Assembly: GCA_001051155.2 (NCBI GenBank)
Contig: JYIP02000002.1
Location: forward strand, 2,983,583-3,047,582
Source of the DNA: Chrysoporthe austroafricana
Taxonomy: Eukaryota; Ascomycota; Sordariomycetes; Diaporthales; Cryphonectriaceae
Length of the DNA: 64,000 nt
Direction: 5' to 3'
In this document: positions 34,426-62,841 of the stretch, piece after piece
How positions within the stretch are numbered: the stretch's first letter is position 1
How the letters are laid out: each line of letters begins with the position of its first letter
The notes under the pieces: generated by a model
The model's input: only the letters and a program-made list of their open reading frames with translations
Told to the model about the DNA's origin: nothing
Databases searched by the model: none
Translations under genes and position numbers: made by a program

Positions 34426-35105
34426 TGTTCGTCCCGGATTTTCATAGAAGCAGTTTGACAATAACGAGACAAAGGACGGGGCGCAAGGCTCTGGAAGCCA
34501 GGAGTAGAAACGTGAAGCTATGTAGGCGAACAAGGCTAATTTTTGAAGGCGATGCCGGAGGAGTCATTTGCTTGCTAAGTTCGGAAGTACCCCGCAAAAT
34601 AGGACCGTACTATGGTACAAAATACTTTGTACAGTGCTAGTGCTTACTAAGTCAGCGAAGCCGCTTAGGGGCGCACGGGCCAGTGGCCAAGGCGCGGCCG
34701 GCACTCTCGAAGCTCTCGCAATCGACAACGTCGCGAGCCTTGCGTCAAACCAAGCCAACCAGCAGATCCATCTGCGGTCCTTGTCGTTCCCTCCGTCCGC
34801 GCTCAACTTTGGAACGGATCGGTACCTCATATTCTCACAGTCGTATCCTAGCCGACTTCTTTTCCTTCTTTTTTCCTTCTCTCAGGACTTTCTCACCTCA
34901 CATCGCGCCACCGACGGGCGAGCCGTACTTTCGACTTCCGTTTGTTCGTGATCGCGCCAGAACAAAGAATTCACGTTCGCGCCAACATCACCCTCTAATC
35001 AGGTGACCTCGACAAACCTTATCTCTCGACAGACCTCATCCTCCCCATACTTTCGAGCCCTCCCTCCGCCCTGATGATACTGCCGTTGCTAGTATCGATC
35101 TGACC
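34426..35105. other. Divergent promoter region, MET2 (-) and THO2 (+)
   Basis: 680 bases with no gene. A pyrimidine-rich stretch (about 34855-34885) lies before the THO2 start and is typical of fungal core promoters and 5' UTRs. I saw no CACGTG-type site here. Confidence 0.6.
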
Positions 35106-38100
35106 ATGCCTCCCAAGCGCAAGAGGACCGTCGACCTGGGAACCCCCCGCCCTTCACCTCACCGACCAGGCGACACCAACTTAGCCCAACATGATAGAGG
35201 TCGTGCTGGCAGTGGTGCTAGACCCTCACGACGCAACGATCGCCGCGATTCAGGCCCCTCGTCTGCTCCTGGCGCAGGTTCACCGCTCAACTCACCATCT
35301 CTTCCCCGACCCTCGAGCGCCTCATCTCAGCCTGCGAGCGCTCCCTTGACCACCAACGCCCCCGCTACAAACTTTTCAATGCCTCCTTCGCCGATACCAT
35401 CTGGCTACCACTACGATATTGTGACCGATGCCCGCTTGGGCAGTTGGACGCAAGGCGGTCGCCAGGAGCTGGTTGAACATGGCATACAGTCTCGCGACGA
35501 CGAGGATATGCAGGAGCTGTCTACGATATTCCAAGAACTCTTGCAGTCATGTTTCGACTTTCGTTTGAAGGCCTCTGAAGCGGGCGAGGTCACCAAGGAG
35601 ATCATTGGACCTCACGACGCAGACAGCAGCACACGTACCTTCGATTCTCACATCCTGTTTCTCGACACCGTTTCTATCTATCTCGATGTTGAAACGAACA
35701 AATCCAGCTCAAATCTGCGCGACTTTATGATCGCGACCAATATCGACCCTGCGCTGATGCGCCGGGTTCTTGAGCCACCCGTGTTGGAGCACCTGGGTTT
35801 GATCCGCGACACTTTCACCAGGGTGGGAATCCGTCAGGCTACCAACATACTGTACAAGCAAGCAAATTACAACTTATTGCGCGAGGAAACTGAGGGGTAT
35901 GCGAAGCTCGCGACAGAGTTGTTCACGACATGCAACCACCAGGCACCGAGCTCAGAAGCGGTCCAGGCCGCCTTCGAGAGAGTGAAGGGTCTTATCGGCA
36001 CCTTTGACCTGGATGTCGGCCGAGTCCTCGACGTGCTTCTCGACGTATTCGCCTCTGTTCTCATTAAGCAGAATCGATTTTTCGTCAAGTTCTTGCGCAT
36101 CAGCTCCTGGTGGCCACGCAGCCCTGTTAAATCTTCTGTCTTTTGTGGTGGCCTGCCGAAATGGGCACTCCCAGAGTCGAGCCATTGGCAGACCAGCGAG
36201 GAGGACGAACAGATTCTCAACGCTCAACGCCTTCAGCGAGATTTGGAATTCTGGGACAGGGCTCGAGATGGGCGGCTCAGAGCATACTTCGAACTCAGTG
36301 GCCGTCAACTCCAAGGACCCGAGCTTCAGCGCATCAAGGCTGTCCTTGAATCGAGCGGCCAAACGCCTGACGACTTGTCCTACCTGGACCCGGAATCTCA
36401 GTGGATTGTGGCCACCAAGACCCTTCCGCCTCAAGGAAACAGGGTCGCAGCCCAGCTGCTCGGATTCAAGCTGCGATTCTACGAGTGTGATGATGTCAGG
36501 GACAGGAACGTTGATGTTATTCCCGCCAACCTCTTCTACATGACTGCACTACTCATCAAGATCGGCTTCATCTCTCTTGCAGACTTATGGCCACATCTGT
36601 CTCCCGACGATACCAAGATGGAGGAGCACCGGAGAGAGAGAGAGAAGGTACTCGAGGAGGAAGAGCGAAAGAAGACCGGCAGGGGCAACAATGCTCTGAC
36701 CATGTCAGTCCTGCCTGATGACACTCTTGGCGCTGCCGGCCAACAACCCGCCAAGCCCAACACCCAGGCAAAAGGTTCCGACGAAAAGGACAAGGACAAA
36801 GACAAAGACAAGGACAAGGATAAGGAGGAATATCCACCCCAGAAAGTGCAGCTGTTGACCGAGCTTCTCACCATGGGCGCCATACCGGAAGCTGTCTACG
36901 TTTTAACGCGATATCCGTGGCTCCCTGAGGCCTATCCAAACCTCTACAGACTCATCAATCGCCTTCTTTCCCACTCAATACAGAAGGTCTCTGATGAGGG
37001 CAGGGTTTTTCACGGAGATTTTGGAGTCTGCTCGGAGATTCCACCGAAACGCCTTCCGGATATTGATCAGACAGGCGTCGCCAAGGGATCCGTGAGACTC
37101 GGCCAGACCGTACAGAGGCGGCCTTTCCGCTGGCCACACCCCGACGGCGAAAGCAACAATACACCATACAGATTTTACTGGGATGAGTGGGCCGACAATG
37201 TCCCCATCTGCCAGACCGTCGATGACGTGTTCACGCTTTGTGACACACTCATGAACCTGTCCGGAGTCAATATCGGCAGAGACCCGACACTACTTGCGAA
37301 GCTTGCCGGCATCGGGGCTATGAGCATGGCCCAAGATCAGTCTTCCCAGAACATGAGCCGCTGGCAAGACTTGCTTACACGTCTACTGGTTCCGGCCCTC
37401 AGCTTGACCGAAGCCAATTCTTTCGCTGTCCATGCTGTCTGGGACCTGCTGAAGCTCTTCCCCATCACCACTCGGTATGCTATCTACTCAGAATGGTTCC
37501 TCGGCCGAATCTCGCGCAACGCAGTGATAAAGTCGGCTTTTGCGCGTACCAGGTCAGAGACGAACAGTGTCCTCAAGCGGCTCTCCCACACGAACTTGAC
37601 CGTAATGGCTAAAAAGCTTGCGAAGACTGCCTATTCGTCCCCTGGTGTCGTCTTCAAGACCGCTTTCGACCAGATCGAGGCCTATCCCAACCTAATCCAG
37701 GCCTTCGTCGAATGCGCGAGATACTTCACGGACTTGGGTTATGATGTTTTGACTTGGTCTTTGATGAGTGCTTTGGGAGGCAAATCTCGAAGCCGAACAC
37801 AAGAAGCATCTGTGCTACTCACAAGCAAGTGGCTGCAAGCCCTGTCTAAATTTTCCGGCAGGGTTTTTAAGCGATATCAGAACATGACGCCATCTCCGGT
37901 CCTTCAATATGTCAACAGCCAGCTATCGAAAGGGAACTCTACAGATTTGGTGATACTGCGAGAGCTCATTTTGAGCATGGCTGGCGTGGTATCCGACGTA
38001 GACTTCACGGATGCTCAATTGCGGGCAATGACGGGCGGCGAGGTGTTGCGTCGGCAAACTCTGACGAAACTCGGTGATCGGCGATTTGAATACATTAACG

Positions 38101-41100
38101 GTGCAAAGCGACTCATGCAATCCTTGGTTGATGCGAAGCTGGCTGGAAAGCTCCTGATCAACTTAGCTCAATACCGCCAGTCAGCACTGTATCAGGACGA
38201 CGCTCATGTCAAGTACCTCGCCACAATCATGGACGAGGTTCAACAAGCCTTAGCCCAGTATCTTGACCTCCTCCGAAGCAACCTGACTCCGGATGAATTC
38301 GACAAGCTCATTCCAGGAATCATTGAGCTGATGACAGTCTATGGTCTCGATGTCAATCTAGCTTTCATGATTGGAAGGGCTAGCCTGGCATATCGCATGG
38401 CCAATACCAAAGCACCGGTAGTCTCACCTGCTAAGGATGGTCCTTCGAATCTTCAGGCGGCGCAAGAGGTTGCTGATATCGACGGCGACCTAGCGATGAA
38501 TGGGACCAGCGCGGAGGGCCCGGCTGATAAACAGAATGCTGGCAAGAATCAGGCGGAGGACAAGATGGTCTTGGACGACAAGCCTGCCTCAGAAATTCCT
38601 GTGGACACCAGCGTACCTTCGGCGTCTGAGACACGAAAGCTTGACCCGATCGCCGATGTCCTACAGCCTATTGTCGACAGCATTCAGGACTTTCTGCCTT
38701 CGTCGACCTGGCAGAACCTCAGTCCAGAGTTCTATGTCACCTTCTGGTCTCTCTCTCTCGGCGACTTGCATGTCCCACAAATGAGCTACGAAGCCGAGAA
38801 CGATCGGCTCAACAAGGAATCAAACGACGTCATGAAGGACCGCTCCGACATGACGCGGCACGGGATGAACAAGAAAGAAGAGAAGAAGAAGTCACTCCAA
38901 GCACTTGCGCAGTCCATCAGGGAAGAATTGGGAAGCCACATCGAACGGTACCAAAAGACCAAATTCAGATTGGCCAGGCAAGCCAAATATTGGTTCTCTG
39001 GATCGATTGCAGAAGCGACAGTAGTTGCTGATGCTCTGTTGGAGCATTGCATACTGCCTAGACTTTTCATGTCTGCTTCTGACACGGAGTACTGCTTCAG
39101 GTTAATGAAATGCCTACACGAGAACCAGACACCGAACTTCAAGCTGTTCACGCTTTATGAGCAGCTATTCAATGCCAACCGACTCCGTGCGATAATCTTT
39201 TCTGCCACAGTCCGCGAAGCAGAGCATTTGGGGCGTTTCCTCAGATGCATACTTGAGGATCTGTCAAGATGGCACGCTGACAAGGCCATATACGAGAAGG
39301 AAGCTTTTGGCCCCAAGCGGAAGTATCTGGGCTTCGCTACGGCTTTTGACCAGGAAGGCAACCCGACGAGTTTCGTTGAGCATCCGTTCTTCCGAGATTC
39401 TCATTATGAATGGCACAAGAACCTCAACATTGCGTTGAAAGCCTGCCTACAGGGAACTAAGGAGTGGATGCACATCAGGAATGCTCTGACGGTCCTGAAA
39501 TGGGTCGCTGAATTCTTTCCCGCTGTCAACTTTATGGGGGCCCAGCTGTTGAAAGTTCTCGATGATATCAAAATTCGTGAAGAAGGTTCCAAGGGTGCAT
39601 CAGAAGAAGAACACCGAGTCGATCTTTCAGTCGCTGCTCAGACGGTCTACGCCATGTTGAAGAGGCAAGATTCCAAATGGGTTGCGGTGCAAGCATTCCG
39701 ACCCAACATGGTGAGTAGTACAGAAACTTCAAGAAAGGTTCAGCAATGGCTAACACAACAATCTAGTCTGTAATGCCGCAGGATGGACCTAAGGATGTTG
39801 AGATGACTACCCCAGCCGCAAATTCCACTCTACGCCCGACTGCAGCAGAATTCAAACCTCAGCAGAGCGCCACGTCAGTACCATCGACAGCTTCTAAACA
39901 ATCCGTACGTAAGGAATTACTGACGCAAGATAGAGCTGCTGCTTCTGCTCAGCCTACGGAAGTGGAAGACGGTGAGGTGAAAGATGGTAAAGACTCGAAA
40001 ATCTCCGCAGCTTCCACCCAGAACGAGCAAGTGAAAACCGAATCCGCAACCAGCCGACCTGCTGTTCAAGACAACGATACGCGGGAGTCTGCGAATAGGG
40101 ATCAGCCTCCTGCACAAGGTAGCAGACCAGCGACACCGAAACCGTTGGTTCCTGTGGCAGCTTCCACGTCGAATGGGCGCAGTGACAACTCTCGGCCGCC
40201 CTCTACGTCGAGGCCGGATAGATTGCCCCACGGCTTGCCCAGTCGCCCCAATGTGCCGATTCCTGGCCCCTATCACCCACAACACCCTGCTTCTGAACGC
40301 CGCGATCTGCCTACTAGAGACAGCCGGGATCCGAAACAACCTCGTGATACGAGAGAGCCGCGGGACTCAAGAGAGCGTCAACGAGACCCTAGGGACCTTT
40401 CTCGTGATGCACGGGACTTGCGAGATCATCGTCAGCAAGACAGCGGTCGTGGAGACAGGCGTGATCACCACGATTCGGACCGTCGAGGAAACGAAAGCCT
40501 TGTTCGCGAGCCTGGACGGCTTTCGGAACGCGATTGGTCAACTCGGCCAGAAACTCTACCCCGTCGAGTTGAACCATCCAGTGATCGAGATGCTCGACCG
40601 ACCCGGGATCGCACACAGACTCGTGATAGCCGTGGCTTGCGAGAGCTGCCTGTTCCGCCTCCCCAGTCTCAAACGACAGCTCCTCAAGAGGGACCGGAAG
40701 AACCACAAATGAACCCTCAGAGAGCTGCTCTGATTCAGGTGGATGATCGAGCCGACATGATCAATCCCCAACGCGCTGCGCTTATGCAAAACTCACAAGG
40801 CACCCCATCGACGCGGTCTCCAAGAGAAGGTGGGCGGGAGCGCGTTTCATCACGTGCGTCGTCTCCAAGGAGAGATGACAGACCCAGTCGTGATGATCGG
40901 CATAGCCGTAGAAATGGGGGCGCAGCGGAGCCACTTCAGCCTTCCGCCAGGGACAATGAACTGCCTCGGGACCAGGACTTTCCACCGAGCGACCGCGGCC
41001 GCGATACATCCCATGCAGGATCGGTCCAGCGTACCCACGATTCCGATCGAAGCAGGCCGAATCAGCAGGACCCAAACTACGGACGATTGAATCCAATCGC

Positions 41101-45817: not shown

Positions 45818-48324
45818 CTATGCCACCTCGGGGATGGACGACAGCTCTCTCCTCTGCTGCTCCCATGTCTTCCTGCACACCTCCTTCATGAGCTTCTTCG
45901 GCGCCAGCCGTCCTGTCATGAGCTCGAACGCCTCGATAGCCATCTCGCTCACGTTTTCGAGCCCGTCAACCACGGTCCAGGCCGGGTTCCGCGTGTCCCT
46001 ATAAACCTGCATCTGGGCAACGAGGGGTGTGATGAGAGGTTCGTAGGCCAGCTGAAATCGAGATTAGTGTTGCTCTTGGAAATCTGAAGGGAAGGAAATG
46101 GCCGGAGAGCGCCCGGCAAAGGATGACGCTGGTGACTGACCTCAAGCACCACCCCTCCAGTTGGGCTACCGAGCCACTGCATAGGCATCTCAAAATCCGC
46201 TGGTGGTTTCCCTTCCATCCCTGTGGCCGGCACACAGGAGACGATTATGGTCGGCTGCTCATATCCCTGTGGCCACGGCTCCGATATGGATGTCAAAACA
46301 TGGCAGATCCGCGAGATCCCGCCTTTGCCAGGAGTCATCCCATGCTTGTGCGCCCAGTCATTGAAATGATCAGCCACGACCTGCGCGTTGGAAATAGTGC
46401 GGTTGAAGATGAAAATGTTGCGGCAGCCAAGCTGGATCAGGGCGTAAATGGCCGCTCTTGCCTGTCCTCCGGCACCAATGACGAGTCCCGTCGTCTTCGA
46501 AGCCCGCACGAAATTTCGCGGGCTTATACTTCTCTGTAGACAGGTGAAGATGGATGACCAGTCCGTATTGTCGCCATAGAACTCTTTCGTGGGACCGGCT
46601 TTGTTGCGCGAGAGGGCGTGATCGAGGATAAAATTCGACTTGCCGCGTAATGGAAGTAGGACATTGACGGCGCCGATGACTGTTGCATGGTAGCTCTTTT
46701 GCTTCAGGTATGGCACGATGGCCACCTTGAAGGGAGCTGTCAGTGACGCTCCACCAAACGAGGCCTCGTTGCATATCGCATTCAAGTTCTCCAGCGTGGA
46801 GCATGGCTCGGCGGTAAAGGTGTGTGGCATGCCAGTGTATTCGTAGGCAGTGTGGTGTATACAGGGGGAAAGTGAGTAGGAAACGTCCGCGCCTAGCGTG
46901 TAGAACCGCAGAGGCTCGAGTTCATAGTTGCGAAAGAGCGCATCGAAGCAACTCGCCGCCGTGCTAACGGTTGCCAGGTGGTCCCGCTCGTTCTCCATGT
47001 CCGGATGCTTGACAGGGTTGAGGATCCGGGACTGGAAGGGGTTTCTGACTCCCAGGACAGAGAAGTCGTACGCCACAAGTGGAGGCTTCGGACTCGGCAC
47101 TGTCGCGGCTATCCTGTCTCGAAAATCCGTGAGCATCTCCAGCGTGCTGTCGCCCGAGCAGAAGCGGACCATGCGGACGAGGTCGCAGCCGAGAGCCTTT
47201 GCCTGCTCGTAGTCTCGAATATGACTGTCGTCTGACCAGGGCGTGGTATTCAGGCCGACATTCCAGTAGTTACCCATGATCTTGGACCGGCCCTTGTGGC
47301 CGATAATCCTTGATATAGGGATGTCTGTCCGCTGCATGTCCAGACTCAGATAGTCCACGCCAAGCCGGAGACCAAGCTCGAGGAGCTCTGTGTCCATCCT
47401 CTTCTTCTCGTCTGCGCCGCGGCGCCGTTCCTCCCTCGGGTTCTCCTCGACATGGTAGATGATAGGAACATCCATCTTCCTCCGGATCAGTGCTACAAAC
47501 CTGGCAATCTGGTCTACCATGTCCGCCGGCCAGTGGTCGATGATGAGCTCGACGCAGTCACCCCTCGCCTCGAAGTCTTCCCACTCCAGGTCCATGTGGA
47601 CAAGATACGACAGCCGCAAGCGCAGGGCATACGAGTACTGCCTGAACTCGGGCGGGATGGCCCTCACGGCGAAGGGGCTCTCGCGGAACAATTTCGCGAG
47701 CCCCTGGCCGGTAACGAAATCGATGAACCGCGTGAAGTCCTGTTTGGCGTATAGGAGGCTGGACGGGGCCACCATCTGGGAGTCCCATTCGCCGGTGGTG
47801 GAGCCGTCATGTGACAAGGCGGCGGTGGATTTGGACGAATCGTAGAGGTTGTAGTACTCCAGGTTGGAGCACGACCTGTGCTTCTGGTCGGCGCGGAGAA
47901 TGCGCTCCCCGTCGGCCGACTCGAGGAGGCGCAGGGCCTCCTCCCGCTCACGGTGGACGTAGATGACGGGGTTGGTGTCGCAGAACTGGCGCAGGGCGTG
48001 CTGGGCGTCCTCGGAGAAGCTGCTCATGCCGCACTCGATGATGCACCGGTAGCGGTGCTCATCGAGCATGCGCTTGAAGACCTCATCGTTCCGGCGGTTG
48101 AACTCGTGCTTGCCGTGCTTGCTGAGGAAGCCCAGGCGGGTGTAGCCGGTGGCCTGCTGGAAGTAGTAGTCCTCGGTGATGAGGCGGCGGCGCAGGTGCA
48201 GGGCGCCTATAAACCCCAAGGAGCGCTTCCCGGCGCCGCGACAGCCGACGAGGACGATGGAGGCGTCGGGGTTAAAGAGGCGCTCATTTAGCGGGGTGGT
48301 GATCTTGGCATCTTCGACGGCCAT
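45818..48324 (-). CDS. qutR: Quinate-pathway repressor homologue (QutR/QA-1S), AROM-derived
   Basis: Proposed exons (minus strand) are 48324-46141 and 46051-45818, with an 89-nt intron, giving 805 residues. The protein matches the last three AROM domains in order: shikimate-kinase-like (~20-190), type I dehydroquinase-like (~215-445) and shikimate-dehydrogenase-like (~480-805). The P-loop is VGCRGAGKRS, where a true kinase has GKT/S-T. The dehydroquinase part lacks a clear catalytic signature. The dehydrogenase part keeps YSLSPCIHHTAYEYTGM, SLTAPFK, GDNTDW and VIGAGGQARAAIYAL, and the splice restores VLE-LAYEPLITPLVAQM. Such proteins in Aspergillus and Neurospora do not act as enzymes; they bind pathway intermediates and hold the quinate activator inactive. 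The protein is somewhat shorter than A. nidulans QutR. The quinate catabolic genes are not in this window. Confidence 0.92.
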
Positions 48325-49749
48325 GTCGTCGTCCCTGGGACATGCCGCGGGTCGAAGAGCCGCCGGCCTCGGACTGCGATGACGTGTTTAGGTTCCGGGT
48401 GTGAGGTAGGGCTGAGCGAGGCCTTGCCTGGGCTGTCGTGTCGCATGAGGTTGCTGATCCCACACGGGTTCCGGTTCTCCTCAGAAACGAGAGCTTGTTC
48501 GAGCCCCGAGTCCCTTCTTTCGCTGGCTGACAGACAGACAGAGAGGGAGACGGGCGGCAAGATGCTGGTGTGGTGCGCTGCGGCCGGTACTTGGGCTCGC
48601 TAAGTAGACAAGGCGGCGGAAAAGATATCTTCCCTCTGTGTCAGTCGTGCTGGGCGGGCGCGCAGGGCCTGGCCAGGGCTGGGGAGCGACGGCGGGCGTT
48701 ATAGGCGGGGCCTCGAGACTGTAAGGCACACAGCCTAGGGAGGGGCGCTCATATCCTCGTAGAGACGACGAGAGGCCGGGCTCGCGGCCAGGGCTGCGAT
48801 GCGATGGATTCGACGAGTCGACGGCGCCGAGGGGCGATAGCGAACATTAATCAGATTGAGGTGAGGGAGCGCTCATGACGTGCAGCAGCAAAACAGCACT
48901 AAGTAGACCACATACAGCGCCGAGCGGGCAGCACCTGTGAGCGCTGTGCAAGGAGAACCTCGGCACCTGCATCGGCCCCTCGACCCAGTGCTGTAGCTAC
49001 CCTAGCACGACTGCTACCCAGCACCCAGCACACCCAGTAGCTCGGAGCGCTGGAGGCGGCAGGGCGGGCACGCACGGGGCGCACGGGGCGCACGGGGCAC
49101 ACAGGGGTACCCAGTAGCCTGCTGCTCTAGCGTGCTACCCCACCACCGCCCACCCTCCCGTGGCCCCCGCCGTGCCCCCTCAGGCCTCGAACCCCAAACT
49201 CAGCAGACCCACCCCTCCTCCCCCCGGAAAAAGCAAGATGACAAAAAGTAGTAGTAAAAAAAAAAAAAAAAAAAACATAATTATCGAGCACGCCTACTGA
49301 TAACGGCCCAGAGGGGGCCAGCCACCAGCCACAGGGGCCAGCCGCCACCCGGCGAACCCCCTTCAGGCAGCGCGCGAGACTCAGGGACGAACAGGGCTCT
49401 GGCGACCTGGAGAAGCATCACCCAACCCCCCCGCCCAGCCTCCCATTGGCCTCGACCTCACCAGCCTAAGTAGCTGCCAGGGTCCAGCCCGTCGGTTCAC
49501 CGGTTCAGGATTGTTCATCTCCGCATCGCCAGTGGCTCCTCCAAACGTGTTCCCCCGAGGTCATCACCTCGTTAGCCCCGACCTCACCGAGAGACGTCGA
49601 GCCCTCGTGGCTAAGATGAGGCTGATCCCTCGCTGTCGCCCTCGCTCTCACAACCACACGCCACGCGCACGCGAGCCCAGGGCCGGCATTATGCTGGTGC
49701 AGATGCTGACGCTCACACCTCGACACAAGCACCACCACACACGGCCATC
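48325..49749. other. Divergent promoter region, QutR-like (-) and Zn2Cys6 (+) genes
   Basis: About 1.4 kb with no supportable gene. It contains short GC-rich direct repeats (about 49070-49100, units of cgcacgggg) and a poly-A run at 49257-49275. Either or both divergent genes could be controlled from here. Confidence 0.6.
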
Positions 49750-56573: not shown

Positions 56574-59062
56574 TCAAAACAAAACAACGGTCTCCCACCT
56601 CGGCTCACAAATCTTCCACAGCTCGGTATAGATATACCCAACCTCGACCCTGCGCACGACGTGCGGCTCGCCCGGGACAGGCTCAACAAGCATGACGTGA
56701 AGGCGCCACTTGCACTGCCGCCGGACCCGCGAGCTCTTGCTCGACAGCTCGTAGTCCGACAGCCCCCCGCTCAGCACGACGAACCTGCACGCGGCCCGCT
56801 GCCGCCCGTTACGAGCAGCCACCCAGCCGGCGCTGCCGCTGCTCAGCCGCCCGACCACCTCGCCGGCGCCCGGGGCCACGATGCTGCCCATCGCGTCGCC
56901 CGACCGCGGCGCCTCGACCCACAGGTCCGCGACCGTCGTGTTGAACACCAGCGCGCCGGGGAACCGCGCCGCGGCGGCGCACGCCCCGGGGTCGAGCGCG
57001 CGGTGCGCCACCGCCTGGCGCGGGTTGTGCGGGCAGGCGCTCCAGATCTCCGTCGACACCAGGGTGTCCGGCTCGTGGCCCAGCGTGGCCGGGGGCACGG
57101 TCTCGCGCCGCGCGACCTCCTCGATGGGCAGGCGCTCGTGCGCGCACCAGCGCTCCTCCTGCTCCAGCATGCGCAGGCCGACGTCGGGGTCGTGGATGTA
57201 GAGGTAGACCAGGCTGACGACGAATTCCAGCTTCATCGAGGGGCGCTGGTCGTCGGACCAGAGGTAGTCCGCCGGGCACCCGGCGGAGGAGGCCCAGCTC
57301 CAGCTTGGGATATAGGGCATGTCCGCTACGTTGTCATCCTGGCGTGGTCTGGAGCCGGCCTGGGCGCGGCTCCACATCAGGGACTGGGCTAGGTGCCTCT
57401 CCGGGAGGCCAAAGAGCATGCGGGTGCGGAGGCCCCTCCCGATAGCATTAGCTACGCCGGCATACGCGTTCAGTATATCGGAGGCGAAGGTCAGATGCCG
57501 TGCTGTGTATTTCTTGACATTCTCGAAGTAGGACTCGAGATCGGAAGGCCCTATGAACTCGCGTAGATTGACGGAATGTCGTTCGCCTACGGCACGGCTA
57601 TCAAGATTGAAAAGGTCTTCGAACCCAGGCAGCTGGAAGCGGTGCTGGCGGCGCTTCTCCATCATCTCCCTGACCTCGACCGTCTGCACGTCCTCGGGAT
57701 ACGTACCCTGGACGTCGCCGAGGGTACGGACATCGGGGTGGCGAGGCAGATACGCAAGCTCTTCATACGCCGTGCCGCACGAGCACTGGAAGATGACCTG
57801 GAACTCGGTGATGAAAAGCCGGCGCCTCGAGAGGAGCCGCTCCTGGAACGTCCAGCCGCGCCGGTTCCACTCGCAGACGTCCACGACCTGGCGCAGCGCC
57901 ACGGGCACGATCCCGCGCCTGTTGCCCTCGCACAGGCGGGGCGGCAGCAGGGCCGACGACACGCGCGGCCGCCCGGGGCAGCCGGGGAGGCCCGAGCTGC
58001 CGTCGCGTGCGTCCAGCGCCGCCATGATGGTGAACGAGGCGGAGCTGAAGATGGCGTCCATGGCGCCGATCTGCCCGTGCTTGGAGCCCGCGTCGTCCTG
58101 GACGATGCAGAAGCGGTCGACCCACAGGTAGCGCTCGCCGAGGCCCCGGCAGAGCGCGATGGCGTCCGCGATGATGGCCGGGATGCGCACGCTGCCCAGC
58201 CCGCCCTCGCTCTCCAGCCGCGCGCGGTTGGCCTTGGTCAGCTGCTCGTGCGCGTCGCCGGCCCCGCTGTCCTGCCACATGTAGCTGAGGGCGACGAACC
58301 CCCGGGCATTGACGGGCCGCGTCACCTTCATGCGCTCCACGTCGATGACCCTGAAATCCGGAGGTAGCGGCCCTTCGGCGGATTTTTGTCAGCAGGCCTA
58401 TTTCGTTACACGGATAGGGGGGATGGGAGGAGAGACGACTCACCTATGCCAGCGTCATGCGAAGCCTGTTCGTGGCCGTGAATCCCATCGCAGGTGTCGA
58501 TCCAGGCCCTCAGCAGCGCAGAGTCGAAATACGGCACCTCCCAGGGGTCGACACCCACCAGCGTCGTAGGCTTCGTCCTCGCATGGCGCAGGCAGAACTG
58601 CGGCGTCATGAAGAAGGGCATGAGCAGGTCGCCCGTCGAGCAGAAGATGTCCAGCTTGATGATGGCCCGCAGCCTCGTGCAGGTCGGGTCGGACCAGTCG
58701 ATCATCCAGCTCCCGGAGCCGTTCTCGGGCGACGAGGGCTCATGGTAGCCCGAGTGCAGGAAGAATGGCCCGTAGTTGCGGACGAGGACATCCTGTGTGT
58801 CGAGGCGCGGGTTGGTGCGCTTCTCGTGGGCGAGCCTGGTCCTGATGGCCGCTGACAGCGCTTGGCAGATCAGGCAGTGGGTGTTGCTGAGCATCGACTG
58901 CAGAGCTGCGTCCACGGAGCCGGCGATTGGGTAGCCAAGCCGCAGTGGATTATTCCCGGACGAGATGGATACCAGATCGTCCCATGGCCGACATCGCTCG
59001 CAGAGCTGTTGATTGGGACCGCCTCTCAGGCTGCTCGCTTTGTCGACAGGGTGGCGAGCCAT
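56574..59062 (-). CDS. HET-domain protein (heterokaryon incompatibility type)
   Basis: Proposed exons (minus strand) are 59062-58444 and 58372-56574, with a 71-nt intron, giving 805 residues. The N-terminus has spaced Cys pairs (LCERCRPW, THCLICQAL) usual in this family. The splice yields LPPDFRVIDVERM, leading into the HET domain at ~residues 230-390: FVALSYMWQD, ERYLWVDRFCIVQDD and RGWTFQERLLSRRRLFIT. The region after it (~400-805) has no known effector motif; it includes MPYIPSWSWASSAG, usual in long HET proteins. HET domains act in vegetative incompatibility and programmed cell death after non-self recognition; recent work on the fold suggests a TIR-like relationship. No NACHT or repeat domain is attached. 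The gene starts 212 bp beyond the stop of the four-domain RNA-processing gene, on the same strand. Confidence 0.9.
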
Positions 59063-59274: not shown

Positions 59275-62200
59275 TTATCCACTTCCGAAAAGTAAATCCT
59301 TCCTCGTCCTCCTCTCCCAGACCACGACCGCGTCACTCTTGCGCTTGAAGTACAGGATCCGGTGCTGCGGGATGAACTCCTCGTGCGTCTGCTCCAGCTT
59401 CCATGCATCCAGCCCTTTCTCCATAGCGCCCAGGAACCTGTCCTCATAGCCAACCACATAGTCTGCGCTGTCCAGCGACGGGTCCCAGCGCAGCCGGTTT
59501 AGCACGTCTGCCGCCGTCCGAAACCTGCCCGCCCCTTCGGGCTTGGGCACGACTGCAGCGCGGGGCTGGTTCGTGGCAGGCTTGGCTTTCTTCTTTTGCG
59601 CGTAATATTGCCCGTCATACTCATCTCCAAGGGTATGGTTCTGCGCTGTTGCTTCTTCCTCCCTGTCTTCGTCGTCAGACTCGTCATCCCCGATAGCATA
59701 TTCGCCCCACTCGCGGTTGTCGACTTCTAGACACTGAACGTCAGCGGCTTTGACGACGCTGGCGTCCATCCACGAGGACTGGGCGTCAAAGTATTTGTTG
59801 TCACCGCGAATCTGTTCTGCAAACCGGCCCAGGACCGAGACCAGCGTACCATACATGACCTTCTCGTCTTCAGTCGTCATGTCATTGTTCAGCTTGTCCA
59901 GACCAATGAGGTAACAGCCTTGGTAGTCTCCAGAATCAGACATGCCCGTGCTCTTCTCAGCCCAGCGAGCTGGCCAGAACCTTGCATGCAGAGTTGGCGC
60001 GCGCTTGCTCAGGTCCACAAGGAGTGAGACGCATCGCGACTCCACCCAGCCAACGAACCCCCGGCCCTTGGTGAGAGAACCTCCCCAGAACTGAACGTCG
60101 ATCTTGATGTAGCTCTTAAACACCCGCAGGAAGCCAGCTGTGCCGTCAGTGTCGATGAATCTCGACCAGGTCATGCTCTTCTCAGAAAGCATATTGTCTG
60201 CTCGCTTGAATTCCGCAGCGAGTGTTCGAGCTGATGGAACAGATGCAGCGAGGCTCGTGTTTAGTGCAGGCGGGAAGTACCCCAGGATGGCGAGAGGCTC
60301 GCGTTCAGTCCTCCTGTAGTTCAGTTCTTTATGGAAGAAAGGGTCAAAAACCAGGTTGTGCTTCCAATCAAAGTTGGCATAGTGATTGAAGAATGTCGCT
60401 AGTACATCGGCAATGGACAATAAAGCTGCATCACGCACCAGAAGCTTGTATACTCGGGCCAGAAGGATGGTGATCTGGATGCCACCCAAATATCCAAACC
60501 TTGCAGTGTAAATGCCGCGACTTTTCGCCCAAGACTTGATCAGGCGATGTGCACAAACAAACCTGGCCATATCAGGGACGGAATGCCGGACATAGTCGAT
60601 GTCGCGAATAGCTTTGAGTTTCGACAGCGTATTGCTTGAGAGGTTCCAGACAGCATGCGAAGCTGGGAGCTTGAGGACCGTGGGCCAAAGCTCTGCGACT
60701 GCGTGAGCAGACACGTATTGGAGGTCAAACTTAACGCCCTGCAGATCCAGCTCCAGCATCGTGCCCGTATTTGCCTTTACTCGACGTATGATCTTGACAT
60801 CTCTGTCGGCGGCTTTTCGCAGTCTCTCAGTCGCGAGCGAGAAGAAGGTAGCGGAGCTGAAGGGCCCGATACACAGGCAGTCGATATCTGAGGAAGGCGT
60901 CCAGACGCCCAATCCATATGATCCCACGGGCACAAATATGAGAGGTGTGCCTGACTGCCCCGATTCTGAAGGCGAGGTGTCGAGAATGACGTCCTTGAGT
61001 ATTTGGAACGCAGCGGCGCGAGTCTTGATGTCCTCATCGGAGGGGATAGCCCCAGCATCTTGCAGAGCCTCTACCAAAGCTGTTGACTCTGCTAGGGAAG
61101 CCTGCGTCATTTTCGGTTGAACAGGTACAACTTGAGAACGCGTTGACCGTGGACTCTCCGTCTCGAGCCCCAGCTTCAAGACAGTCCGAATGCCCCAGTG
61201 ATCACTGGCGTACGAGGTCTTGGGCGTTTCCTCTGCATCAGCCTCCGTAATATCACCGAATTTGTTGAAATGTAGGACCTTCAAGAATCCGGCCTCCTTG
61301 ACCAATATCCTATCGATCCGCTGAGGTCGCATGCCAAACCCACTGCCTACGATCTCTGCGGCCAGCGTATTGACGGTCGGATCATAAGTGGCACCTTGCT
61401 CGCCTTCAAAGGCGGGCTCGACTTCTTCGTCTGATACCGCCCCTCTTTCCAATTGGAAGACTGTCCAGGCATCGACGAAGCCGTTTTGAACGAAGGTAGC
61501 ATCGAGGTTGCGAAGATGTGTGACAGCCTGTGTAGAGACAACATTCTTCTCGAGGGCCTGGCTGATTGTATAGGCCGATGTGGTGATATTGAAGTCGCCC
61601 GCCAAAATAACCGGGTTGTCTGGGTAATTTTGGGCCAAGTGCTTCAGAATCCTGTCTGCCTCCAATTTCTTGGCGGCAATGGATCCGTCTTTTAGACCGT
61701 GCGTAAGGTGTACGGTAGCGAGTATTAGAGGCGTGAAGTCGGCATCATCCCATATTCCGAGGTTCCGGAACTTGACAACAAGCGCGTTCTTGTGCTCACG
61801 ATTGAATGGCACGCTCTCCCATTCAAAAGCGTGCTTGCTGAGCACCACAATATTATTGTGGCTTGGAAGCGGCTCGACGTCCTCTTGGGCCGGAGGGCCA
61901 TGGCTGCACAAGGGGAAGGCATTTCGGATATCTTGATCCTCGAGTAAATAAGACAGGAAGTCGTCAGTGACTTCCTGCAGGACTAGCACATCGGCCTTGG
62001 CCTGGCTAGAGAGGATGTTTTTGATGAGCAACGGGTATCGCTTCTGCGAAGGTGGGTATTGGAATTCGGCCAGCACGTTGTATGTTGCAACAGCCAAGAG
62101 AGAAGCATTCCCCTGCCCCGCCTCGGGGAGATGTCGGTCCGGCGAGACCAGTTCCCATGCCTGTCCTCCATAGCAAATGTATGGTGCGCCCCCCTCCGGC

Positions 62201-62841
62201 GCTGGTGATGGGGCTTCGTCGTTGAATGCCTGCGGCGCCGCGGGCTGGCAGATACTGCCGTCCTTCAAGGATATCGTCGCCCACGTCTTCATCTGGGTTG
62301 ACAATGAATCTCCCACCTCGGCCCGCTCTCTCACGAGGAGGTGGAGCTGGTCAATTTCCCACTCGACTCCAGGAAGGAGCCTTGCCTTTTGAAGGAGGAA
62401 GTGGTGCCAGGACTCGTTCATATCTTCGCTCTGCCCGACGCTCATATGCATTCGATAGTTATCAGCGCCCTCATGCCCCAGCGCAGAGAGGACGGCCTGG
62501 CGCAGGCCCCTCAGCTGATCTCTCCGCTCCTCATTGTCGTCGTACATGAAGATGGTATTGTAGTGCCGGTGCTTGAACACATCGGCCGCACCGAGTCGTA
62601 TTCGAAACGGCGCCTTGCCCTGGACAGCTGACTGGATCGCCTCTGCTGCCCTGGGCAGGGCGTCGACCTGAACGAACGGGTAGACAAGATTGACATGCGG
62701 TGGCCACTTCCCATAGGCCTTGTCATAACGTGACCTCAGCAGTTCGATCCCGGACCACAGATTTCTCGGCGGTATAACACACAAGGCGGTGTCGTGGGAG
62801 CCAGTAGCGAGTGCTGCGGTTGTCTGCTCCGGACTCGCCAT
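59275..62841 (-). CDS. Four-domain RNA end-processing protein: 2H-EEP-PAP-MJ1316 fusion
   Basis: A single exon of 1188 residues. The start is the ATG at 62841 (ctaccATGG context); the frame opens further only through a TTG. Domain 1 (~20-195) is a 2H phosphoesterase with HVNLVYPF (His49) and HMSVGQ (His132). Domain 2 (~247-558) is an EEP nuclease/phosphatase: TYNVL (Asn255), LQEVT (Glu290), ATVHLTHG (His378), LAGDFN (Asp416, Asn418), RIDRIL and SDHWG (Asp547, His548). Domain 3 (~580-985) is a poly(A)-polymerase-like nucleotidyltransferase: VPVGSYGLGV, SSDIDCL (Asp652, Asp654), third acid in VKFDLQYV (Asp706), then a PAP central region. An acidic linker (~1047-1075) leads to domain 4 (~1104-1183), MJ1316/DUF504, with TAADVLNRLRWDP, EEFIPQHRI and VVWERRTRKDLLFG. 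I infer trimming or opening of cyclic-phosphate or capped ends, then nucleotide addition, guided by end recognition. Substrate RNA is unknown. Confidence 0.9.
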   Translation of the reverse strand: MASPEQTTAALATGSHDTALCVIPPRNLWSGIELLRSRYDKAYGKWPPHVNLVYPFVQVDALPRAAEAIQSAVQGKAPFRIRLGAADVFKHRHYNTIFMYDDNEERRDQLRGLRQAVLSALGHEGADNYRMHMSVGQSEDMNESWHHFLLQKARLLPGVEWEIDQLHLLVRERAEVGDSLSTQMKTWATISLKDGSICQPAAPQAFNDEAPSPAPEGGAPYICYGGQAWELVSPDRHLPEAGQGNASLLAVATYNVLAEFQYPPSQKRYPLLIKNILSSQAKADVLVLQEVTDDFLSYLLEDQDIRNAFPLCSHGPPAQEDVEPLPSHNNIVVLSKHAFEWESVPFNREHKNALVVKFRNLGIWDDADFTPLILATVHLTHGLKDGSIAAKKLEADRILKHLAQNYPDNPVILAGDFNITTSAYTISQALEKNVVSTQAVTHLRNLDATFVQNGFVDAWTVFQLERGAVSDEEVEPAFEGEQGATYDPTVNTLAAEIVGSGFGMRPQRIDRILVKEAGFLKVLHFNKFGDITEADAEETPKTSYASDHWGIRTVLKLGLETESPRSTRSQVVPVQPKMTQASLAESTALVEALQDAGAIPSDEDIKTRAAAFQILKDVILDTSPSESGQSGTPLIFVPVGSYGLGVWTPSSDIDCLCIGPFSSATFFSLATERLRKAADRDVKIIRRVKANTGTMLELDLQGVKFDLQYVSAHAVAELWPTVLKLPASHAVWNLSSNTLSKLKAIRDIDYVRHSVPDMARFVCAHRLIKSWAKSRGIYTARFGYLGGIQITILLARVYKLLVRDAALLSIADVLATFFNHYANFDWKHNLVFDPFFHKELNYRRTEREPLAILGYFPPALNTSLAASVPSARTLAAEFKRADNMLSEKSMTWSRFIDTDGTAGFLRVFKSYIKIDVQFWGGSLTKGRGFVGWVESRCVSLLVDLSKRAPTLHARFWPARWAEKSTGMSDSGDYQGCYLIGLDKLNNDMTTEDEKVMYGTLVSVLGRFAEQIRGDNKYFDAQSSWMDASVVKAADVQCLEVDNREWGEYAIGDDESDDEDREEEATAQNHTLGDEYDGQYYAQKKKAKPATNQPRAAVVPKPEGAGRFRTAADVLNRLRWDPSLDSADYVVGYEDRFLGAMEKGLDAWKLEQTHEEFIPQHRILYFKRKSDAVVVWERRTRKDLLFGSG

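Follow-up and report, generated by a model that had tools for sequence, protein, structure and literature searches.

We found that a single open frame of Chrysoporthe austroafricana encodes a protein of 1188 amino acids that joins a 2H phosphoesterase domain, an endonuclease/exonuclease/phosphatase (EEP) domain, a poly(A) polymerase (PAP) unit and an MJ1316 domain. The domain assignments hold and the active sites are largely kept, which makes an enzyme acting on RNA ends the most obvious reading of this four-domain protein, a reading that is partly supported by the sequence. We tentatively propose, with somewhat less than even confidence, that this one chain heals RNA 3' ends and afterwards tails them ("heal, then tail").

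The window, i.e., the whole stretch of 64,000 nucleotides analysed here, comes from a genome of 48.15 Mb in 22 contigs. The interval 59275..62841 corresponds exactly to one coding sequence on the minus strand (the first-pass annotation had not stated the strand), with the initiating Met at 62841, the last codon at 59278-59280 and the stop codon at 59275-59277. No sign of an intron was seen, and the plus strand, translated in one frame over these positions, is broken by many stops. From stop to stop the frame spans 1225 codons, whereas after the full window had been randomised 40 times with a first-order Markov model the longest frame averaged 262 aa and reached 407 at most. In the alignment, the N-terminal Met lies at a position roughly common to the query and the relatives listed. 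Accidental read-through of separate genes was rejected on the basis of this frame length and of the similar full-length annotated proteins in other genomes. The first-pass claim that three enzyme folds and an MJ1316 signature share one uninterrupted frame was borne out, with all four Pfam domains present, and a single gene product is predicted.

Domains were called with Pfam profiles judged by curated cut-offs, a search that had been suggested for the four named domains, and none of the four failed. The 2H phosphoesterase domain (aa 24-174, 62320..62772, minus strand as for all features below) matched PF13563 with 111.6 bits against a cut-off of 27 (4.6e-32), and the EEP hydrolase domain (aa 252-548, 61198..62088) matched PF03372 with 37.7 bits against 24.5. 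The PAP-type nucleotidyltransferase core (aa 579-713, 60703..61107) passed for PF01909 (22.8 against 21, 1.2e-4) and fell slightly under the cut-off for PF20750 (25.6 against 27, 1.3e-5). It is followed by the poly(A) polymerase central domain (aa 761-884, 60190..60561; PF04928, 44.4 bits against 27.1, 1.9e-11) and by a C-terminal PAP part (about aa 905-1040, 59722..60129), which is probably an RRM-like RNA-binding domain. An acidic linker predicted with low confidence (aa 1049-1102, 59536..59697, pLDDT < 50) leads to the MJ1316 domain (aa 1108-1177, 59311..59520), which carries the motif FIPQHR and matched PF04457 with 67.5 bits against 26.3 (1.7e-18). The Pfam scan of the protein revealed no ATP-dependent ligase, RtcB-type ligase or kinase in the chain; the words "RNA ligase" in the name of PF13563 are a label for the 2H fold.

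A search of 7989 scored candidates gave 616 homologues at E <=0.001, and the family details below rest on 120 of these, 14 shorter than 1140 aa and 106 of at least 1140 aa. The taxonomic spread of the four-domain set had been proposed as a check. Among the matches listed, the precomputed Pfam column showed all four domains in 96 of the 106 long relatives, the other ten being without one domain each: PF03372 in seven (P0005, P0010, P0012, P0033, P0047, P0108 and P0111), PF04457 in two (P0027 and P0028) and PF13563 in P0030. We also chose 42 relatives less than 72% identical to each other and scanned 39 of them with Pfam; the 2H, PAP central and MJ1316 domains were found in 39/39 and EEP in 37/39 (38/40 rows once the window's own EEP piece is counted). 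Three named relatives were placed taxonomically, all in Sordariomycetes. We take the other named genera among the listed relatives to belong there as well, except for P0115, which is labelled Lasiodiplodia (Dothideomycetes), has 50% identity like many Xylariales matches and is possibly mislabelled. The nearest of the relatives listed, M406DRAFT_288543 of Cryphonectria parasitica (Diaporthales; 1220 aa, 77% identical at a query coverage of 99%), has the same four Pfam domains, and no substantive difference was seen.

When the query and 106 relatives were aligned, all 18 signature residues were intact in 97 of the 107 rows. The exceptions are gaps only in P0022, P0028, P0030, P0094 and P0106, and substitutions in P0016, P0027, P0033, P0085 and P0108. 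Mean identity to the query was 55% for 2H, 57% for EEP, 57% for PAP and 77% for MJ1316, compared with 37% for the acidic linker. MJ1316, the supposed reader, is therefore the most conserved and most constrained of the modules. Its comparison with solved structures gave a single match, a designed protein at E 0.86. In a published study, MJ1316 is said to recognise RNA 2'-3' cyclic ends and to occur throughout eukaryotes in fusions with RNA-repair domains, which likewise combine MJ1316 with RNA-end enzymes (PMC6514570). We infer that the MJ1316 domain of the fungal protein may bind cyclic-phosphate RNA ends as well.

"Heal, then tail" is the most economical model for such a chain, in which we infer the steps from recognition to tailing as follows. 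MJ1316, on its tether, would dock RNAs ending in 2',3'-cyclic phosphate, the kind of end that metal-independent RNases or cleavage of the tRNA-splicing type leave behind. The 2H domain would open the cyclic-phosphate ring, the EEP domain would take off the remaining phosphate or adduct, and the PAP unit would then extend the regenerated 3'-OH with nucleotides, by which the RNA would be repaired or marked for decay. Since Pfam shows no ligase or kinase in the chain, healing would be followed by tailing and not by sealing. The main results against this model are the first motif of the 2H domain and the TDP2-like fold of the EEP domain, and its best rival is an EEP domain acting on 5' ends.

The EEP catalytic set (N, E, H, D/N, D/H) is represented by N255, E290, H378, D416, N418, D547 and H548, each kept in 105 to 107 of the 107 rows, which together with the Pfam match identifies the module as a member of the EEP superfamily. 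TDP2 was its best fold match whichever of the two models and two aligners was used, with 22% identity and a lead of only roughly one unit of Z over neutral sphingomyelinase and a bacterial EEP protein (25.1 each). A search of solved structures with the EEP profile also placed TDP2 on top, at an insignificant E of 0.16. The single EEP sequence gave five matches, all exodeoxyribonucleases (best 3w2y, E 0.016); TDP2 was absent from this set. ANGEL2 and PDE12 lay outside the 50 fold-comparison rows shown, which excludes neither. Judged by the models, the EEP domain appears nearest to TDP2 in fold rather than to CCR4-type enzymes, and deadenylation, which the first-pass annotation had named among the known activities of EEP enzymes, is for that reason not favoured.

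A TDP2-like EEP domain might instead clear a 5' block, such as a 5'-linked peptide, a nucleotide cap or the like, with 2H and PAP working on the 3' end, either of that RNA or of a partner. The agreement of models and aligners on TDP2 and its top rank in the profile search favour such a processor of both ends. However, the low identity, the narrow lead in Z and the exonuclease-III-type proteins ranked first by the single sequence argue against it; moreover, a fold does not give the substrate, and no 5'-end recognition module was seen in the chain. We consider this reading unlikely, albeit the best of the rivals.

The PAP signature is nearly invariant: in G640-S641 the Ser is present in 107/107 rows, and D652, D654 and D706 are present in 106/107, 107/107 and 106/107, respectively. 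A phmmer match to mammalian PAP (1.2e-21) covers aa 571-981, and in the predicted model the PAP unit, from the nucleotidyltransferase to the RRM-like end, aligned between 570 and 1040. The GS motif with three Asp, the central domain and the RRM-like end, the last suggested by the model, place the unit among poly(A) polymerases. It is not the best PAP of its genome, since PF04928 gives 231.8 bits at a second locus and 48.6 at this one, and it has about 20% identity to the canonical nuclear enzyme; an orthologue of the latter was not recognised in it.

The PAP unit could also simply mark cleaved RNAs for decay, or serve as a small-RNA factor, with the hydrolases only preparing ends and no repair taking place. 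The presence of a PAP unit in a chain devoid of ligase and kinase fits this, as does the higher-scoring locus, by which bulk mRNA polyadenylation is presumably covered. By itself, however, tailing for decay leaves the top conservation of MJ1316 unexplained, and without substrates it is hard to separate from "heal, then tail". We hold it to be a little less probable than the processing of both ends.

The 2H domain contains the motifs PPHVNL (H49, N51) and HMS (H132, S134). Both histidines are kept (H49 in 104/104 and H132 in 105/106 rows with a letter there), and the third position of the second motif is T or S in 104/106. In the first motif, however, the Asn of HxN occurs in 106/106 rows with a letter, so that the second motif fits the two-HxT/S signature and the first does not. 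The nearest solved relative by sequence, B. subtilis BSU11850 (2d4g), has HLT at the aligned site, and the other PF13563 protein of the genome (L006, frame from position 1189) has HLT and HYT. We located the first motif in 25 of 28 short 2H frames and found HxN in 24 and HxT in one (P0263), indicating that the site matches the customary one and that the change is confined to the hydroxyl residue. Asn thus seems to have replaced the hydroxyl residue within the four-domain protein family. P0263, a 2H relative of 283 aa at 42% identity, has HVT where the family has HxN and carries a second 2H profile, PF02834, in the precomputed Pfam list; its motif may be the ancestral state. The module is probably best described as a 2H-fold member with an altered first motif, not a canonical two-HxT/S enzyme, and 2H catalysis cannot be taken for granted.

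One or more modules, 2H in particular, might accordingly be non-catalytic parts of an RNA-binding scaffold. The uniform HxN and the intact motifs of the genome's other PF13563 protein speak for this, but the retention of both histidines and a change confined to the hydroxyl residue speak against it, and we regard a scaffold as quite improbable. A degenerate enzyme was rejected for EEP and PAP, whose active-site residues are kept across the alignment; the expectation of non-degenerate active sites was therefore upheld for these two modules and left in doubt for 2H. A role in making or breaking down oligonucleotide signals, 2',5'-linked or other, is very unlikely: members of the 2H and EEP groups, among them AKAP7 and PDE12, do degrade 2-5A, but the polymerase part matches poly(A) polymerases.

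Six-frame scans of the own genome, in which introns were disregarded, gave one MJ1316 match, two PAP_central matches, two PF13563 matches and ten PF03372 matches, the four-domain protein among the last. With this EEP domain as the query, no second match was found in the rest of the genome, and none of the other nine PF03372 matches was recovered. A protein search with the MJ1316 region gave 288 matches; the 120 listed among them had 67-85% identity and were mostly short frames, some with PAP_central. All 28 matches of the 2H-domain search had 38-63% identity. The matches of both searches are probably exons or fragments of the same family. Four pairs (P0035/P0255, P0041/P0254, P0038/P0253 and P0034/P0258) each combine a short 2H frame with a PAP-bearing one of ~1000 aa on contigs of equal reported length, and three of the four long frames have EEP in the precomputed Pfam column; perhaps some relatives have an intron in the 2H region or a split gene. 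The family profile gave 15 pattern matches in viral contigs, none of which was confirmed.

Downstream of the gene, the long frame that follows on this strand (56577-58388, minus) codes for a protein with a HET (heterokaryon incompatibility) domain (PF06985, 2.2e-25); no evidence of a functional link was seen. THO complex subunit 2, an mRNA-export factor, is encoded at 35007-39770 on the plus strand (PF16134, 1.5e-232); its location ~20 kb away is probably a coincidence. An 811-aa frame at 45952-48387 on the minus strand has shikimate kinase, 3-dehydroquinase and shikimate dehydrogenase domains, which we take to fit a quinate-pathway repressor.

Parts of the proposed pathway are known from other systems. 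The fungal tRNA ligase Trl1 opens 2',3'-cyclic phosphates by means of a 2H domain and has kinase and ligase domains, neither of which Pfam shows in the four-domain protein, where PAP is found instead. Vertebrate LENG9 also has a 2H (AKAP7-like) domain; it differs in its CCCH zinc finger and is not known to have EEP or PAP units. The fungal EEP domain has 22% identity to TDP2 (tyrosyl-DNA phosphodiesterase 2) and is here joined to 2H, PAP and MJ1316. According to another study, the EEP-fold phosphatase ANGEL2 clears the 3' end in animal mitochondria before the poly(A) polymerase MTPAP extends it (PMC9525292). These are two proteins rather than one chain, and ANGEL2 is of the CCR4 type, whereas the fungal EEP domain appears nearer to TDP2.

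As the first-pass annotation had supposed, related fusions are already in databases under partial names: they are annotated in named genomes as single proteins, comparable in length and bearing all four Pfam domains, and are called "hypothetical protein", "polynucleotide adenylyltransferase" and similar. The theme of MJ1316/RNA-repair fusion is published as well, and Burroughs and Aravind 2016 is probably the source cited there for the eukaryotic cases. In the literature searched, whose scope was without Mazumder 2002 and Burroughs and Aravind 2016, the likeliest sources, we found neither a description of the exact four-domain enzyme nor an experiment on its function.

The earlier idea of an all-in-one RNA-end machine is favoured by the domains and mostly kept active sites, and weakened by the HxN motif and the TDP2-like EEP; none of the results speaks specifically for ribotoxins or RNase stress. 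Many RNases make cyclic-phosphate RNA ends, and to our knowledge little is known of their fate in fungi outside tRNA splicing. With all candidate activities in one chain, the proposed role of MJ1316 becomes directly testable: purified protein and a few defined oligonucleotides could show whether cyclic ends are read and whether healing is coupled to tailing. A bolder and rather unlikely view is that of a fungal RNA damage responder handling both new ends of a cleaved RNA, in which MJ1316 would capture the cyclic 3' end, a 2H domain of altered (HxN) chemistry and the TDP2-like EEP domain would clear the ends, and the attached poly(A) polymerase would write a tail deciding between rescue and decay. 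If true, this would in effect be RNA repair that needs neither a template nor a ligase.
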